Origin: an uncultured Pseudoflavonifractor sp.
GTDB taxonomy: Bacteria; Bacillota; Clostridia; Oscillospirales; Oscillospiraceae
Reading direction: 5' to 3'
Assembly (NCBI GenBank): GCA_947644625.1
Contig: CANRZY010000004.1
Span: 1-48,180 of the forward strand
Length of the DNA: 48,180 nucleotides
The stretch's first letter is position 1; every line of letters begins with the position of its first letter. Below are positions 22,552-43,305 of the stretch, piece after piece. Under the pieces are notes generated by a model. The model did no database searches. It had not been told where the DNA came from and saw only the letters and a list, made by a program, of their open reading frames with translations. The translations under genes and the position numbers were made by a program.

Positions 22552-22827
22552 TAGCTTCGATCAACAAGGGTAAACACGCCCCAGAGGCCCCAAAGGGCGC
22601 GCTGGTGGTGTTCTCGCCCTCCGAGGGCGACAAGCCCACGTTCGGGCTGTGGCCTTGCCATCACACCCTTTGGGGCCTCTGGGGTCCGAAGGAGTTTTGC
22701 GAGAGCCCAAAGCATTCCCGGCAAGGTTGTCAACGCAGCCTTACTGGCGTAAGGCAAGGAGACAAAACGCAGTCCGGAAGCGGCTTGGGCCCCGCAAAAC
22801 CGTGTCTGCCCTTGTTGATCGAAGCTA
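22552..22827. mobile_element. MITE-like structured repeat, copy 1 (276 bp, TA-flanked)
   Basis: Perfect TIRs TAGCTTCGATCAACAAGGG at both ends; internal perfect 19-bp inverted repeat CCCCAGAGGCCCCAAAGGG (22579-22597) / CCCTTTGGGGCCTCTGGGG (22666-22684); near-identical to 32526-32802. Confidence 0.9.
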
Positions 22828-24141
22828 GCCAAAAGGTATTTCCCGAGGGCCAAAAAGCAACCTTCCCAGCAGGATAGCAATGGGATAGAGCAAAAGCCGG
22901 TCATCCGGTTCGGAGGCAACATTACAAAAATATTCCGCAGTGTAGAACGCCCCGCCAAGATACTGGATCAGCAAGCTGCCTCCGGCCATAAGTAGCGCGG
23001 TAACAACGCCGCCAATGACGGCTCCTCTCCGTCCGCCAGCCTTGTTTCCAAAGACCGCCGCGCCGCCGGCGGCCATATAGAAATAGAGCGTGGCCCCCCC
23101 AATAAATCCCCAGCCCAGCTTTGCAAACAGCAGCATCAGGGCAAAAAAGAGTACCGAGCCGGAAACGGCTCCAAACAATACCGCGTTCTGCCCAAAGGGA
23201 AACAGCGTCGGAACATCCATCGCCGCCTTTGCGTTGGGGACCAGCTTTTGGCTAACCGCCCCCAACGCCGGCATCAGCTCGCTGGTGATCATACGCAAGC
23301 CGCTTGTCAGGATAAAATAGCCCGCGGAAAATTGAAGACCCTGGGCTACCGCCCAAACCGGTACCGGAAGCTGCGTGCCGCATACCTCCCTTGCCGCCTC
23401 GGTTCCGCAAGCCGCGCAGAAAGCCAGGATCGCCGCGCTTTGCAGCAAAAACATACATACCCCCATATCACGCAGCACCGCCGCAAGCTTGGGCAGTTTT
23501 ATTTCTTCGGTATCATCGCCATCCCGCCGTTTACGGACCAGCAGCTTTACCGCCAGGGCCGTTATGGCGATAGAGATGGATGTCTGATGTCCGTAAGCCG
23601 CAGCCGAGTCGCCCCGAATGCGTTCTATCTGCTTATCGATATACATTGGCTGGATACAATACCAAAGCCCTGTGATCACCGTACCGAAGGCCACCACATA
23701 CAGCCAATTTGTTTCCTTATACACGGTTACCGCTATGCCGGTCGTTAACAGCGCCAAACGCAGAAGCACGTGACAGCCTCCCATATAGACGATCTTCCGT
23801 CCCTCAGGCACAAGCTTTCGCTCGATCAGCAGATGGAGCAAAAAGCCAAACGCCATGACCGGAACATAGTAGATCCCATTTGACCGAAAAAAAGCGTTGG
23901 TGTTCGCCGGAGCCTCCACCCCAAAGGCGGCTGTCGCCAGAAGGCGAAGTCGGTTTGCCGTATCAAGGAATACAAAGACGCCGGTATTAAAAATGAGAAA
24001 GCCGGTCACGGCCTTGACCGCCGAACAGAATATCTGCCCGGCGCTCTTTCTCATCATCGCCTGGGCGGCCATAACAAGAACGCCAAACATACACGCGGTC
24101 ACGACACAGTCAAGATCTATCCATTCTAAAATAGACTGCAT
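22825..24141 (-). CDS. PTS sugar transporter subunit IIC (ascorbate-type)
   Basis: UlaA/SgaT-like membrane protein: FGVLVMAAQAMMRKSAGQ...FLIFNTGVFVF...; follows PRD regulator; stop TAG is completed by the repeat terminus. Confidence 0.85.
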   Translation of the reverse strand: MQSILEWIDLDCVVTACMFGVLVMAAQAMMRKSAGQIFCSAVKAVTGFLIFNTGVFVFLDTANRLRLLATAAFGVEAPANTNAFFRSNGIYYVPVMAFGFLLHLLIERKLVPEGRKIVYMGGCHVLLRLALLTTGIAVTVYKETNWLYVVAFGTVITGLWYCIQPMYIDKQIERIRGDSAAAYGHQTSISIAITALAVKLLVRKRRDGDDTEEIKLPKLAAVLRDMGVCMFLLQSAAILAFCAACGTEAAREVCGTQLPVPVWAVAQGLQFSAGYFILTSGLRMITSELMPALGAVSQKLVPNAKAAMDVPTLFPFGQNAVLFGAVSGSVLFFALMLLFAKLGWGFIGGATLYFYMAAGGAAVFGNKAGGRRGAVIGGVVTALLMAGGSLLIQYLGGAFYTAEYFCNVASEPDDRLLLYPIAILLGRLLFGPREIPFG

Positions 24142-24157
24142 ATATCCTTCCTCCCTT

Positions 24158-26005
24158 CTATCCGTATAATAATTTGACAATATCCTCTATATGCCGCGCA
24201 TCCAGGATCCCGGCCCTGGCCCTATTGTCGGAAAGGATATTTGCCAGCGCCCCCAAGGCCCGCTGATGAAGCTTGTTATCCAGCGCGGCAATGACGATCA
24301 CAAGCCGGATCGGATGATCCTCCATATCAAGCAAATAGACCGGCTGCTTTAAGCGCAGCAGACTAAAGCCCAACATACGCACCTGTGAGGAGTATGCGTG
24401 AGGAATCAGCGTTTCGGAAAACACCTCGTAATAAGTGCCATGAGTCAGGGTCAATCCGATCATCTCGTCAACATAACCCGGTAAAATGGCCCCCTCCCGC
24501 AAAAGCGGCTCGGCGGCGGTCCTCACCGCCGTTTTCCAATCCCCGCAGGCGTCCATCATTTGAATATACTCCGGCTTCAGTACCTTTTTCAGCTTTGGGG
24601 GCCTTAATACGTCGGCAACCACCCTGCGTTCCGCGGGAGACGCCATTTTCAGCAGATTCCGTAATACGGTCTCGTTCCGAATATCGCAATACTCCTTCAT
24701 CTGCTGGATACATAAATGAACGCTTCCCGACTCCAGATCCAATTCGGTTTGTTGTATCCGCTCCGCCTCCCATTCCCCCTGCTCCTCCGGCCCTGGGGCC
24801 GCCCTGTCGGACTCCAAGATCTTCAGCAGGTAGGATACGATAAACGCCGTTTCATCCTCACACACATACAGCAAGGAATCCATCCGAAGCCCGCGCAAAA
24901 GCATGTTTACAATACAAAACACATCGTTGTGCTTCCGCTTCATGGACAGCAGCTTTGGATAAACGATGGGAAAATCATATTTGGCGCAGAAGGAGGCAAA
25001 CAGCAAATGCCGGGACAATTCCTGGATCAACGCCTGGTCCTCTACCGGCTGGACATTCACGATCAGGGAAAACCGATAGATCAGTTCGGCGGCGATCCAC
25101 TCAAAATGGCACATCTGCTTGGGCAGCAGCTCCTGCCGTAGGTCTGCGTTATCTCCCGCATATCCCAAAAGAAGGGCGATATAGGGAAGCTCGTTCCCAT
25201 CTACCGCGCACCCAGGCTCCTCCGCCAGCTCGCCAGCCAGCTTCCGCGCCAAACTCCACGCCCGGGAGGAGCGGGGCACATCGCACATTTGGCCGTGGTA
25301 GACCGTATCCCTTCCCCCACGCAGGAAAAGCAGAGAGAGCAAGCAGGCCGCCCGGTTGAGGTATTCTATGGTACAGGGTATCTGCTCCTCCCGAAACAGC
25401 TCCCACAGCCGCTGCGCAATTTTGTGCGGGGATACCAGGCTTGTCCTGTGCAATACCGTGCGTACCACACTGGAGAAAAGCTCGATGCTGCCCAGCCTGT
25501 CAATATGCATCAGCACAAAATTCCGAACGCTCTCCTGCCTGCCTCCCAAAAAATACCCTTGCTGCCGGCTGAAGCGAAGGGAGATCGAATGCTCAGCCGC
25601 AGCCGCCCTGATCTGCTTCAGATCCCGGATCACCGTATTCTTGCTGATTTTAAAGGCAGACTGGAAATGGAATACGGAAAGCTCCTCATCGGCGCAAAAA
25701 ATATATATGATCTCCGCCGATTGCCGGATCTGGGGATCCTGGTCGTCCAGAATCAGCTTGCAGCCATCCGTATCCGCCAGTCTTGCGAAAAATTCGGACC
25801 AGGAAAATGTGACCAGCACGGAATCATTTGTAACAACAAGCTCCGGCAGTCGGTATCCGGCAAGATACTCATTGATCCAATGCAGCCGATACCTTAACTG
25901 AGAACGGCTGAGGTTATATCCCTGCTCAAGGGTCTCCAGCGGAACGCTGCCCGCCTTAACGATATCCTGAAGGATCCGAAAGCCGCTCTTCCTATAGTCA
26001 TCCAT
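24158..26005 (-). CDS. PRD-containing transcriptional regulator with C-terminal EIIA domain (MtlR/BglG type)
   Basis: N-terminal HTHs, central PRD-like helices, C-terminal GYVDEMIGLTLTHGTYYEVFSETLIPHAYSSQVRMLGFSLLRLKQPV (EIIA). Confidence 0.88.
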   Translation of the reverse strand: MDDYRKSGFRILQDIVKAGSVPLETLEQGYNLSRSQLRYRLHWINEYLAGYRLPELVVTNDSVLVTFSWSEFFARLADTDGCKLILDDQDPQIRQSAEIIYIFCADEELSVFHFQSAFKISKNTVIRDLKQIRAAAAEHSISLRFSRQQGYFLGGRQESVRNFVLMHIDRLGSIELFSSVVRTVLHRTSLVSPHKIAQRLWELFREEQIPCTIEYLNRAACLLSLLFLRGGRDTVYHGQMCDVPRSSRAWSLARKLAGELAEEPGCAVDGNELPYIALLLGYAGDNADLRQELLPKQMCHFEWIAAELIYRFSLIVNVQPVEDQALIQELSRHLLFASFCAKYDFPIVYPKLLSMKRKHNDVFCIVNMLLRGLRMDSLLYVCEDETAFIVSYLLKILESDRAAPGPEEQGEWEAERIQQTELDLESGSVHLCIQQMKEYCDIRNETVLRNLLKMASPAERRVVADVLRPPKLKKVLKPEYIQMMDACGDWKTAVRTAAEPLLREGAILPGYVDEMIGLTLTHGTYYEVFSETLIPHAYSSQVRMLGFSLLRLKQPVYLLDMEDHPIRLVIVIAALDNKLHQRALGALANILSDNRARAGILDARHIEDIVKLLYG

Positions 26006-28365: not shown

Positions 28366-29049
28366 CTATTGTTCCCTGGGATCGGGATCCCCATCCAGGG
28401 TGGACAGATACCGGAACATGGGCGCCAGCTTTTCCCACTCGTTCAGGATATAGCCCGCCAGCTCCGGGGACCACAGAAGCTCGTCATGCTCCCGCTCGCA
28501 ACTGAGGGAAAAGCCTCCCTTTTTGTTATACCATGGCTCCAGACATTTGCTGGGAGCGGGGCGAAGCTTTTTGAACTCCTCCCCCTCCAGATGAAAGGTA
28601 TCCTGCCTCTCCAGCTGCCGGACCAGCTTCTCCATGGTTTTTGGATCCCGGTCCATCCGGGCCCGAAGCTTTGCCATGGTGAGAGCCTGGGCCATCCAAT
28701 ATCCCAGTCCAAAGCTGTATCCCTCTGGAGAAAGCTCAAACCAAAAGACAGGCTGGCAGGACCACCGCTCGGCGGGCTCGGAAACGGTAAGCCACAGATG
28801 GTCCTTGTAGGGTCCTCTTCCGAACAGCCGCCGGGCGTCCCGGTAAATACGGCTCACCCGGCTCACCAGTCCCAGATCGGAATGCTTATCCGAAAATCCG
28901 TCATACAGCTCCCGGCACAGTTCCTTCATAGGTGTTTCAAATATTTCCTTGTACTCCACCTTCCGCGGTTCAAACCATTCCCGGTTGTTGTTCAAACGGA
29001 TCCCCCACATAAAATCCACCACTGCGGGGTCAAAGCCTTGAAAACTCAT
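28366..29049 (-). CDS. DUF2461 family protein
   Basis: FMWGIRLNNNREWFEPRKVEYKE...RDARRLFGRGPYKDHLWLT...PEGYSFGLGYW. Confidence 0.88.
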   Translation of the reverse strand: MSFQGFDPAVVDFMWGIRLNNNREWFEPRKVEYKEIFETPMKELCRELYDGFSDKHSDLGLVSRVSRIYRDARRLFGRGPYKDHLWLTVSEPAERWSCQPVFWFELSPEGYSFGLGYWMAQALTMAKLRARMDRDPKTMEKLVRQLERQDTFHLEGEEFKKLRPAPSKCLEPWYNKKGGFSLSCEREHDELLWSPELAGYILNEWEKLAPMFRYLSTLDGDPDPREQ

Positions 29050-29071
29050 GGAGTATCCTATTCTCCTTCCT

Positions 29072-29193
29072 TAGCTTCGATTAACATGGGCAGATACGGT
29101 TTTGCGGAGCCCAAGCCGCCTCGGAGGGCGAGAACGCCGCCAGTGCGCCTTTTGGGGCCTCTGGGGCGTGTTTGCCCTTGTGAATAGAAGCTA
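29072..29193. mobile_element. MITE-like structured repeat, copy 2 (122 bp, internally deleted, inverted)
   Basis: Ends TAGCTTCGATTAACATGGGCAGATACGG / rc TAGCTTCTATTCACAAGGGCAAACACG; lacks the central ~155 bp of copy 1. Confidence 0.88.
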
Positions 29194-31077
29194 CTGCCCC
29201 AGCACAATGGTCCCCGGAGGGAGGATCATGGGCAGAATGGGCTCCTCGCTCTCTGCCGCAGGAGGCTGCGCCCCCTGTCCCGGAGGAAGAATGGGCTCGT
29301 CCCCCGTCTCAGCAGGCGGAACTGACGGCGTTTGAGAGGGCTCCGGCCCACCGCTCTGCGCGGGGGAAGCGCTCTCCTGAGGCAGAGCGCTCTCCGCTGG
29401 GGCCACGGGAGTGGACGTGGGCTCGGTACGGATCCCGGTAAAGGGATCGATCCCCCACAGCTCCAGGTCGGCGGGATTGAAAAGAATGACCTCATTCCGG
29501 TAGTGATACTTGGTCTTGTAGAGGAGCGTTTCCGACAGCACCTTGCCCTCGGCGTCCACCAGCTTTTGATAGGTCTCAATGGTAACGCCGTTATAGCCGG
29601 TACGCTCCGGATCCTTCTGAGTAGTGCCCTGGGGAACGGAGGCGTCCGCCTGGTAAATGGTCTCGTAAGGCTGGGTCACCACCCGGTTGGTGGAATAGGG
29701 CTGCCCGTGGATCCCGGTAACGTCGGTCCCCAGGATGGTCACATGGATATAATTCTTGCTGTCTACCGAAGCCTCGATCTTGATGGGGTGGTCCGTATCG
29801 TTCTTAAAGCGGAAATCCAGACTTCCTTCATCGCCGTAATCCCCATAGACCGTGGCGTCCAAGCCGCCCTTCACATAACTGGGCTCATAACGGTGGGCAT
29901 ACCGCTCCAGGGTCTCCAGATTAGCCATCAGGGCTGCCCAGTAAAGGGTGGAAGAAGCCTGGCAGATCCCTCCCGCCACCGTATCCTTCGACAGTCCGTT
30001 TACATAGGCAGTAGCCTTTCCGTAACCGTTGGCCTCAGTATAGGGACTGCACTTCTGGTTAAAGGAAAACTCATCCCCCGGAAAGAGGATGGAGCCATTG
30101 ACAAACTCCGCCGCCACCTTCACGTTCACCTTTCGGTCGGCAGTGCCGGTGACCCGGGTGGTGGCCTCTCCCAGCACGTCCCGGAACAGGCTTTCGGTAA
30201 GCTGCTCAGTGGAGGTATCAGGCTCGGTAAGCAGAAGGTCTACCCGGAAGACGGTCCCCTCCCTGGCTGCGGCCAGCGCCTCCCTGGCTCCCTCCACATC
30301 CAGATCCTTTCCTGTGACGGAGGGAACGATCTCCAGAGATTCCCGGTCCAGATAGGCGTCAGCCACCTTGGCGTAGACCTCCTGCCGGATAGATTCAAAA
30401 TCAGGCTCGGCAGGGGGGGCAACGGCAATGACCGCCTCCACCGGGGCATAGCCCGCAGGCTCGTCATTGTTCAAAAGATGGCCTGCCCGCTCGGTGAGGG
30501 CGGGCAGCAAACCGGCCACATCCACCGTCCGGCCTGTGCGGCCCTTGGTAAATACCACCGCCGTATCCCGGATCTCCCAGGTGGTCTGGGCGTCGGCATC
30601 CCCCTGCTCCCGGGCCGCCCGCTCCACTTCACCGGGTACATGGTCCAGGGTAAGGACCACAGGAGCTCCGCTCCTGTCCAGCATTCCGGCCAGGAACCGA
30701 AACCCCCGGAGGGGTATGGGCGCGGCGGCGGGGGACACGCTTTTCACCGCCCCCTCCGCGTCATAGGAAAACTCCGTACCGGAAAGCTGATAAAGCGTCC
30801 CCTGACAGGAAAAGGGCACCTCCAACGCGGAAAGCCGCTGCTGAAGGGCAACGTCCAGGGCAGCAGAGGCCTCCCCGGCGGACATACCCCCCACCTCTAC
30901 CCCGCCGATGCGGGTATGGGGCGCCATACGTCCCCCGCCCCCTCCGGCGTAAGCGCATAAGGCCGTATAGCCCCCTATGAGCAAAACAAGCGCCGCCCCT
31001 AAAATGATAAGGGCGGTCCTGGGTCTTCCTTTATTGGGCTCCGCCACAAGGCGTTTGCCCCCTGTCTTCTCTTCCAT
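29191..31077 (-). CDS. VanW family protein with peptidoglycan-binding-like N-terminal repeats
   Basis: FPGDEFSFNQKCSPYTEANGYGKATAYVNGLSKDTVAGGICQASSTLYWAAL VanW core; TM; Pro/Ser-rich tail; stop TAG completed by repeat terminus. Confidence 0.92.
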   Translation of the reverse strand: MEEKTGGKRLVAEPNKGRPRTALIILGAALVLLIGGYTALCAYAGGGGGRMAPHTRIGGVEVGGMSAGEASAALDVALQQRLSALEVPFSCQGTLYQLSGTEFSYDAEGAVKSVSPAAAPIPLRGFRFLAGMLDRSGAPVVLTLDHVPGEVERAAREQGDADAQTTWEIRDTAVVFTKGRTGRTVDVAGLLPALTERAGHLLNNDEPAGYAPVEAVIAVAPPAEPDFESIRQEVYAKVADAYLDRESLEIVPSVTGKDLDVEGAREALAAAREGTVFRVDLLLTEPDTSTEQLTESLFRDVLGEATTRVTGTADRKVNVKVAAEFVNGSILFPGDEFSFNQKCSPYTEANGYGKATAYVNGLSKDTVAGGICQASSTLYWAALMANLETLERYAHRYEPSYVKGGLDATVYGDYGDEGSLDFRFKNDTDHPIKIEASVDSKNYIHVTILGTDVTGIHGQPYSTNRVVTQPYETIYQADASVPQGTTQKDPERTGYNGVTIETYQKLVDAEGKVLSETLLYKTKYHYRNEVILFNPADLELWGIDPFTGIRTEPTSTPVAPAESALPQESASPAQSGGPEPSQTPSVPPAETGDEPILPPGQGAQPPAAESEEPILPMILPPGTIVLGQ

Positions 31078-31279: not shown

Positions 31280-32512
31280 ATGTCCAATAAACAAGAATCC
31301 AATATCCCCTGGTGGGCCATTGTTCTGGGCTTTATTTTCTTTTGGCCTGTGGGCATGATCCTCCTGTTTTTAAGTCTGGGCGGAGTCAACGTTCCCGTGG
31401 ACCGGATCCGGCAGGAATTCCAAACTCAGCAGACCTACCGGCCCGGCGCCCAGCAGCGGTATACGCCGCCTTCCGCCGGGGCGCAAAGCGGGTATCAGGC
31501 CCGGAGCGGTCCCGTCCAGGGACAGGGGGCCGCCGCGGGAGCGGCGGCCAAGGCTGGGCAGGGCGCTGCCCAGCGGCCCTATTCTTACGGCGGAGCCTCC
31601 GCCTCCAAACAGGCCCCGCAGGGGCAGGGCACATCAAGAAAACGCTTTTTCCGCAAGCCTAAAAGCGGAAAGTTCCTTACCACTCTCGGCGGTATTATGA
31701 GCTTTGCCTTCGGCATTGGTTTTATTTCCGAGATTGCTGATTACGGCCTTCTTTATCCCGGAGAGTGGTTTCCCCTGTTTGGCTTTCTCTGCGCGGGACT
31801 GGTAACTCTCTGGAACGGCCTATCCCGCACCCGGCAGGGGCGGCGGCAGCGGCTTTATATGGGCGTGATCGGCAACCGGAACTCCGTCTTCATCTCTGAT
31901 CTGGCAAGCGCCGCTGGGGTCAGTGAGAAAAAGGTTATTTCCGATCTTCAGCGGATGCTCTCCGACGGCACTCTCCCCATGGGCTACATAGACCGGGCCT
32001 CGGGACGGCTGGTGCTCACCGACCAGGGCTATGAGGCCCCCCACCGGGAGGAGGCTCCCCAGAAGGAAGCTCCCCCCAAGGCCCAGAGCAAGGAGGACGA
32101 GGACGACGCCATTCTCCGCCAGATCAAGGAGGTCAACGACGCCATTCCCGACGACGAGATGAGCCGCAAAATAGACCGGATCGGGGAGATCACCGGAAAG
32201 ATCCTGGATTACCAGCGGCAGAATCCCGCCAAGGCCTCCGAGCTGCGGCAGTTTTTGAACTATTATCTGCCCACCACCCTGAAGATCCTCCGGGCCTATG
32301 CCCAGATGGAGGCCCAGGGGGTGGAGGGGGAAAACATCTCCTCCGCCAAGCACCGTATCGAGGATATGATGGATAAGGTGGTGGAGGGCTTTGAAAAACA
32401 GCTGGACCAGCTCTTCCGCACCGACGTCATGGACATTACCACCGATGTAGAGGTGCTGGAGCGGATGCTGGACAAGGACGGTCTGGGATCGGGAATGACT
32501 CTGGGAGGCTGA
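31280..32512 (+). CDS. XpaC-like (5-bromo-4-chloroindolyl phosphate hydrolysis) family protein
   Basis: N-terminal TM, low-complexity linker, helical C-terminus (EISRKIDRIGEITGKILDYQRQNPAKASELRQFLNYYLPTTLKILRAYAQME) typical of XpaC. Confidence 0.8.
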   Translation: MSNKQESNIPWWAIVLGFIFFWPVGMILLFLSLGGVNVPVDRIRQEFQTQQTYRPGAQQRYTPPSAGAQSGYQARSGPVQGQGAAAGAAAKAGQGAAQRPYSYGGASASKQAPQGQGTSRKRFFRKPKSGKFLTTLGGIMSFAFGIGFISEIADYGLLYPGEWFPLFGFLCAGLVTLWNGLSRTRQGRRQRLYMGVIGNRNSVFISDLASAAGVSEKKVISDLQRMLSDGTLPMGYIDRASGRLVLTDQGYEAPHREEAPQKEAPPKAQSKEDEDDAILRQIKEVNDAIPDDEMSRKIDRIGEITGKILDYQRQNPAKASELRQFLNYYLPTTLKILRAYAQMEAQGVEGENISSAKHRIEDMMDKVVEGFEKQLDQLFRTDVMDITTDVEVLERMLDKDGLGSGMTLGG

Positions 32513-32525
32513 CATCTGACAGACA

Positions 32526-32802
32526 TACCTTCGCTTGACAAGGGCAAACACGCCCCAGAGGACCCCAAAGGGTGCGCTGGCGGCGTTCTCCCCCTTGCCG
32601 GGCGACAGCCCACCTGCGGGGTGCGGCCTTGCCATCACACCCTTTGGGGCCCTCTGGGGTCCGAAGGAGTTTTGCGAGAGCCCAAGGCGTTCCCGGCAAG
32701 GTTATCGACGCAGCCTTACTGGCGTAAGGCAAGGAGATAAAACGCTGTCCGGGGGCGGCTTGGGCCCCGTAAAACCGTGTCTGCCCTTGTCAAGCGAAGG
32801 TA
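32526..32802. mobile_element. MITE-like structured repeat, copy 3 (277 bp, TA-flanked)
   Basis: Perfect TIRs TACCTTCGCTTGACAAGGGC; interior highly similar to copy 1. Confidence 0.9.
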
Positions 32803-32806
32803 GAGA

Positions 32807-32846
32807 AGGAGCCGCGCTGCCTCAGGCAGCGCGGCTCCTTTCGTAT
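32807..32846 (+). terminator. Intrinsic terminator, now separated from its gene by repeat copy 3
   Basis: AAGGAGCCGCGCTGCctcagGCAGCGCGGCTCCTTTCG. Confidence 0.85.
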
Positions 32847-41382: not shown

Positions 41383-41520
41383 GTAAATAGGAATTACCGT
41401 TGCGCCGATGGGGAAATCAAAAATGAAACGTGGTCCTGCCGGACCGGTGAGGACACCGGTCCCTACAAAATGGCGCCAATGCCCGCATAGGGACCAACCT
41501 CCCCGGCGGTCCGGTCCCTG
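41383..41520. repeat. Dispersed repeat family 2, copy A
   Basis: Shares GCGCCGATGGGGAAATCAAAAATG..ACGTGGTCCTGCCGGACCGG.GAGGACACCGGTCCCTACAAAATGGC..CAAT with copy B, same orientation. Confidence 0.85.
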
Positions 41521-41524
41521 CTTT

Positions 41525-43157: not shown

Positions 43158-43305
43158 GTAAATGGGAATTTAGCGTTGTACCATTGCGCCGATGGGGAAA
43201 TCAAAAATGGGACGTGGTCCTGCCGGACCGGCGAGGACACCGGTCCCTACAAAATGGCATCAATACCTGCGTAGGGACCGCCGTCCCCGGCGGTCCGGCC
43301 CTTGC
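43158..43305. repeat. Dispersed repeat family 2, copy B
   Basis: See copy A; internal GGTCCCTAC..GTAGGGACC inverted repeat. Confidence 0.85.

Follow-up and report, generated by a model that had tools for sequence, protein, structure and literature searches.

The window, a stretch of 48,180 nucleotides from an uncultured Pseudoflavonifractor sp., carries three copies of a palindromic element (Table 1). Copy 2, whose span is counted from TA to TA with both dinucleotides included, separates a VanW-family ORF from the DUF2461 gene and has the ends GCTTCGATTAACATGGGCAGATACG and GCTTCTATTCACAAGGGCAAACACG. The junction reads on the gene strand ACC ATT GTG CTG GGG CAG TAG-CTTCTATTCAC...ATCGAAGC-TA-AGGAAGGAGAATAGGATACTCC-ATG. 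The TAG stop of the VanW-family ORF (29191-29193) is composite, its TA belonging to the host and its G to the element, and beyond the far end of the copy the sequence continues as TA-A-GGAAGGAG...ATG into the DUF2461 gene. The sequence-only reading had this ORF end in CAG-TA plus a G from the element, which the junction bears out together with the two family labels (PF04294 and PF09365). Deletion of copy 2 in silico with one TA retained yields CAG-TAA-GGAAGGAGAATAGGATACTCC-ATG, exactly the ancestral junction that had been written down. The proposal that the ancestral TAA overlapped the ribosome-binding site of the DUF2461 gene does not hold; instead, the TAA abuts the Shine-Dalgarno sequence GGAAGGAG, which was left unharmed by the insertion.

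Table 1. Features of the window associated with the three element copies.
Feature	Position	Strand	Support
Copy 1, G-ended and full-length (276 bp), inserted in the EIIC TAA stop	22552..22827	+	
PTS EIIC gene, TAG stop supplied by copy 1	22825..24180	-	Pfam PF03611 1e-49
DUF2461 gene, downstream of the copy 2 insertion	28366..29049	-	Pfam PF09365 6.5e-42
DUF2461 Shine-Dalgarno GGAAGGAG, immediately preceded by the ancestral TAA	29063..29070	-	sequence
Copy 2, palindromic element shortened by deletion to 122 bp, with TA at each end	29072..29193	-	orthologous junction empty in 15 genomes of the genus
Terminal inverted repeat, DUF2461 side, GCTTCGATTAACATGGGCAGATACG	29074..29098	+	
Terminal inverted repeat, VanW side, GCTTCTATTCACAAGGGCAAACACG, starting with the G of the TAG stop	29167..29191	-	
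VanW-family ORF, 628 aa	29191..31077	-	Pfam PF04294 3e-42
Copy 3, full-length 277-bp C-ended element	32526..32802	+	
Terminator-like hairpin immediately past copy 3	32806..32841	+	sequence

Two of the three copies, those at EIIC and VanW, used a TAA stop as TA target, as the earlier reading had it. Both are G-ended and regenerate TAG in either orientation, since both ends of this subfamily start with G. Copy 3 was also described correctly: it has a terminal C and is found outside of a stop codon, 13 bp past a TGA stop (32510-32512) and just 5' of the hairpin terminator. A repeat finder also detected another direct repeat, unrelated to the element: 127 nt at positions 41395-41521 and 43179-43305 of the window (89% identical, 1784 bp apart).

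Element-free orthologous junctions

Each of the 15 other genomes of the genus has the DUF2461 gene, and in most of them the VanW gene adjoins it. The junction search found the element in front of DUF2461 in none of the 15. The nearest relative (84% DNA identity over DUF2461; genome G004, locus L096) has the junction ..ATTGTGGTGGGGCAG TAA gaaccc..ATG, and its VanW protein ends GQ-TAA, read as GGG-CAG-TAA (GTGGTGGGGCAG-TAA), which is the predicted ancestral stop. Other relatives have TAG or TGA there, with varied spacing. Outside of the window, copy C36:6775 occupies the stop codon of hpt (Pribosyltran) and is closely followed by a presumed ftsH gene. The hpt-ftsH junction is element-free in the relatives that have it, and 7 of 15 hpt orthologs inspected end in TAA. 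Empty orthologous sites at these two loci confirm that the TA of a TAA stop was the insertion site and that the terminal G turned it to TAG. The VanW and hpt cases are real insertions at stop codons.

A palindromic element with a covarying three-way fold

The element is a small, non-autonomous, MITE-like mobile element, palindromic and coding no protein. Full-length copies measure 276-278 bp, both in its own genus and in several further genera of the family; two shorter complete copies have 243 and 273 bp. Sizes overall range from 50 to 278 bp with no conserved ORF, and every two-ended copy has inverted repeats of ~25 bp. It shares with MITEs the short length (100-400 bp) without coded protein, the terminal inverted repeats and the target-site duplication at a clean empty site. 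Copies are up to 99% identical within one genome, which implies recent movement.

The fold is Y-shaped, with a closing stem of 23-25 bp and two lobes. In an alignment of 22 copies 95.7% of the cells pair, and 47 of the 72 pairs are changed on both sides. The covariation score is 0.416 for these 22 copies versus 0.151 for shuffles, a control that overstates significance for related copies, and at most 0.10 for slid controls, which keep the relatedness, yet favour a structure derived from the same alignment. The outer nine bases are lineage-specific (GCTTCGATT, CCTTCGCTT, CCATCGGTT, CCATCAGTT, GCGTCAGCT, CCCTCGGCG), and the pairing and the inner ACAAGGGCARACACG are preserved despite these differences. 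Relatives in other Oscillospiraceae genera (L062, L063, L066, L067, L221-L225) likewise differ in their outer stems and share inner motif, length and fold at ~50-60% identity (~55% across genera). One carrier genome (G377) matches the cultured Vescimonas fastidiosa MM35.

Several derivatives follow the boundaries of the lobes. Copy C15:16098 (L034:2099-2269) has lost the right lobe and C36:6775 (L032:1976-2155) the left one, in both cases precisely, and the 50-bp copies consist of the closing stem only. In the C11 copy (L031:2014-2290, G000:C11:18313-18589) the left lobe is inverted in place relative to all other full-length copies, its core identity being 0.88 when flipped and 0.61 in direct orientation. 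Recombination between the lobe arms, or resolution of a folded intermediate, would be expected to give such an inversion. In two species a single degenerate end is fused to a terminator hairpin (L044:1619, G000:C128; L081:1527, G013:C4). Both lie at apparently the same place and may represent an old shared insertion that became part of the terminator.

TA duplication is also a property of MITEs derived from IS630/Tc1-mariner. The IS630 domain DDE_3 (PF13358) had no match in the 16 genomes of the genus, the own genome included and several of them incomplete, and no resident IS630 element with matching ends was found in the own genome or in the genus. IS630 was rejected as local mobiliser on these grounds and, because DDE_3 was not found in the 16 genomes, membership of the IS630-derived class is not claimed despite the TA on both sides. 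Viral contigs gave no match to the exact pattern. The lone record from a phage collection (MT837146.1, L255, ‘Bacteriophage sp.’, unverified) looks bacterial, coding FtsK-, aminopeptidase- and PfkB-like proteins beside a Vescimonas-type copy of the element, and a viral home was discarded. Membership of an Rfam family was rejected as well: there was no match at the gathering threshold, and a lax search of seven loci returned sub-threshold matches only, located outside of the element. Among open-licence papers no account was found of this element family, or of a MITE end regenerating a stop codon in place, and the family is apparently undescribed.

Terminal base, reading frame and stop codons

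Copies were counted by BLAST and pattern searches of the 1.9-Mb draft genome (135 contigs, 89% complete). Among the 17 with a scorable junction, eight are G-ended (window copies 1 and 2, C33:7072, C6:36690, C36:6775, C115:3852, C6:27609, C15:5837) and nine C-ended (window copy 3, C99:1, C43:8428, C11:18313, C15:16098, C9:12568, C36:10080, C3:55389, C72:1). Four lie in stop codons (EIIC, VanW, hpt and gatB), all G-ended, and a fifth, also G-ended, closes an MFS gene in genome G013; these five long coding ORFs stop exactly at the TAG of the element. Genus-wide, stop-codon copies amount to 5/17 for G-ended versus 0/16 for C-ended elements (Fisher p=0.026), and to 5/17 versus 0/24 (p=0.008) when copies from two other genera (Vescimonas and that of G309) are included. 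In-frame ORFs at L047, L028 and L209 were left out of this count, having been judged non-coding by codon score or by an antisense gene. The predicted correlation of the terminal base with insertion in stop codons was, in consequence, recovered.

The proposed test for enrichment at TAA stops against random TA sites came out less evenly. In 128 kb sampled from the own genome, 1042 TAs count as tolerated and 63 of them (~6%) are stop-codon TAs. This null is crude and makes the figures rough: intergenic TAs vary in tolerance, element loci are over-represented in the sample and genes were called with a simple codon model. The 5/17 G-ended copies represent a ~5-fold excess over it (p=0.003). The excess weakens to p=0.06 when the two discovery copies (window copies 1 and 2) are set aside and 15 remain, to p=0.10 if the true null is 15%, and is gone should the majority of intergenic TAs not be tolerated. 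Ordinary insertions between genes make up most of the copies, and several further ones are found 4-16 bp from stops. TA is present at both ends of 25 of the 31 two-ended sites and at one end only of the other six, with no target consensus beyond TA among the 31.

Of the 22 full-length copies, 15 begin the closing stem with a C-G pair and 7 with G-C. This pair is never mismatched, and both ends of each copy therefore agree. In the frame where TA begins the codon, G gives TAG and C gives TAC with read-through. In the frame where T closes a codon, the end reads T-ACC-TTC-GCT-TGA (or T-AGC-TTC-GAT-TGA), through which C-ended copies can close genes at a TGA four codons in. Two such cases are found, nth and a GNAT-like ORF, both 12-16 bp before the old stop and in the T-ACC-TTC-GCT-TGA frame. 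The conserved nth tail DTYNKK* becomes DTFA*, just past the last cysteine of a presumed Fe-S motif, and the tail YEYFTQTP* of the GNAT-like ORF becomes YEYFTFA*. Both end types can thus close genes, each by its own frame. A terminal base acting as an independent switch tied to stop codons was rejected: the base belongs to a closing-stem pair and flips with its partner, and hybrid ends exist. No choice of stop codons is needed, since whether a copy ends in G or C is a paired feature of the closing stem that covaries.

Insertion and probable selection at gene ends

Random insertion at TA followed by selection, a filter rather than targeting, probably explains most of the stop-codon pattern (probability of roughly three in four). 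The element inserted at a TA dinucleotide and has TA on both sides afterwards; it would be mobilised in trans by a putative transposase. At VanW the TA struck was that of the TAA stop; with G at both ends of this subfamily, TAG results whichever the orientation, leaving the VanW protein unchanged and the DUF2461 ribosome-binding site outside of the element. Genome-wide, the element would land at TA with no other preference. The cluster at gene ends would be mainly a post-insertion filter because insertions within genes would be lost unless the end sequence gives an immediate stop, namely TAG in frame 1 (G-ended) or TGA/TAA four codons in, in frame 3 of most ends. Points against this explanation are that no mobilising enzyme was found (PF13358, 16 genomes, several incomplete), that the null is crude, and that stop-codon insertions among G-ended copies still reach about five times the 6% null, which may reflect some real preference for gene ends.

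That same excess, together with the further copies close to stops, is what favours an active targeting of gene ends or stop codons, for instance by a termination-coupled transposase or a favoured TAA context, with a G end evolved for stop repair. Such targeting is decidedly improbable: C-ended copies are as common as G-ended ones, yet none is in a stop codon, the G end belongs to a base pair that can flip, and significance weakens once the discovery copies are removed. Targeting by sequence context was rejected, as the 31 sites share only TA. The idea of an element adapted to insert harmlessly at gene ends is not upheld either, given the TA-only consensus, the mostly intergenic copies and a terminal base that is half of a stem pair. 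It is also rather improbable that the hairpin is kept at gene ends as something useful, a candidate terminator, mRNA 3'-end stabiliser or RNase III site between operon genes. Its very stable fold (z=-11.4 for copy 1, z=-3.0 for copy 2), the structure conserved across genera and the several copies just past genes would suit such a role, but the VanW and hpt junctions of relatives lack it, its size varies from 50 to 277 bp and its ends have no built-in U-tract. Small-number noise is very improbable as source of the correlation. The window holds just three copies and the discovery copies drive much of the significance; against this stand the independent cases at hpt, gatB and the MFS gene and the absence of stop-codon insertions among 24 C-ended copies. 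Beyond the filter, a tentative and on balance unlikely extension is that the mobility machinery recognises the fold and not the end sequence. A Y-shaped single-strand hairpin of fixed length would be the substrate, with an outer stem free to vary if paired and tips serving as portable stop codons, so that the element would live inside core-gene stops such as that of gatB.

Known repeats share parts of this organization. RUP of Streptococcus pneumoniae, a 107-bp MITE with TA target and the ends of IS630-Spn1 (PMC2229807, PMC3049150), is likewise small, protein-free, bounded by inverted repeats and present in many copies. It differs in matching a resident IS630, whereas DDE_3 was not found here in 16 genomes, and in being AT-rich and 107 bp long, while the present element is GC-rich, 277 bp long and has a conserved three-way fold. 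Correia/NEMIS and ERIC (RU-1) are also small palindromic mobile elements near genes. RU-1 insertions at gene 3' ends alter or extend the stop (PMC2229807, PMC2759123), but they add a C-terminal peptide, whereas here the end gives TAG at the old stop position and leaves the protein as it was. QMITE2 of Coxiella burnetii, a MITE whose transcript folds very stably, is similarly inserted at a gene 3' end, that of enhC, where it changes the protein end (PMC5896051). Its direct repeats are of 7-9 bp (PMC10969869) rather than TA, and in one strain it lengthens the protein by 33 residues. The pneumococcal SPRITE and BOX are interspersed structured repeats enriched downstream of genes, which was explained by insertion tolerance (PMC3049150); SPRITE has terminator-like AAAA/TTTT ends, and BOX is modular and variable in length, unlike the element described here.

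The VanW and hpt insertions provide a clean, ortholog-verified example of an element whose end sequence decides which genomic sites are survivable: G-ended copies live in stop codons of core genes (hpt, gatB) and C-ended copies do not. The element itself is more unusual than its insertion in stop codons. Its family spans several Oscillospiraceae genera, including that of the cultured Vescimonas fastidiosa, and keeps length and three-way fold at ~55% identity, which is more than ordinary MITEs would need. The conserved fold makes it testable whether selection acts on the structure in its RNA form or as a folded DNA substrate of transposition.
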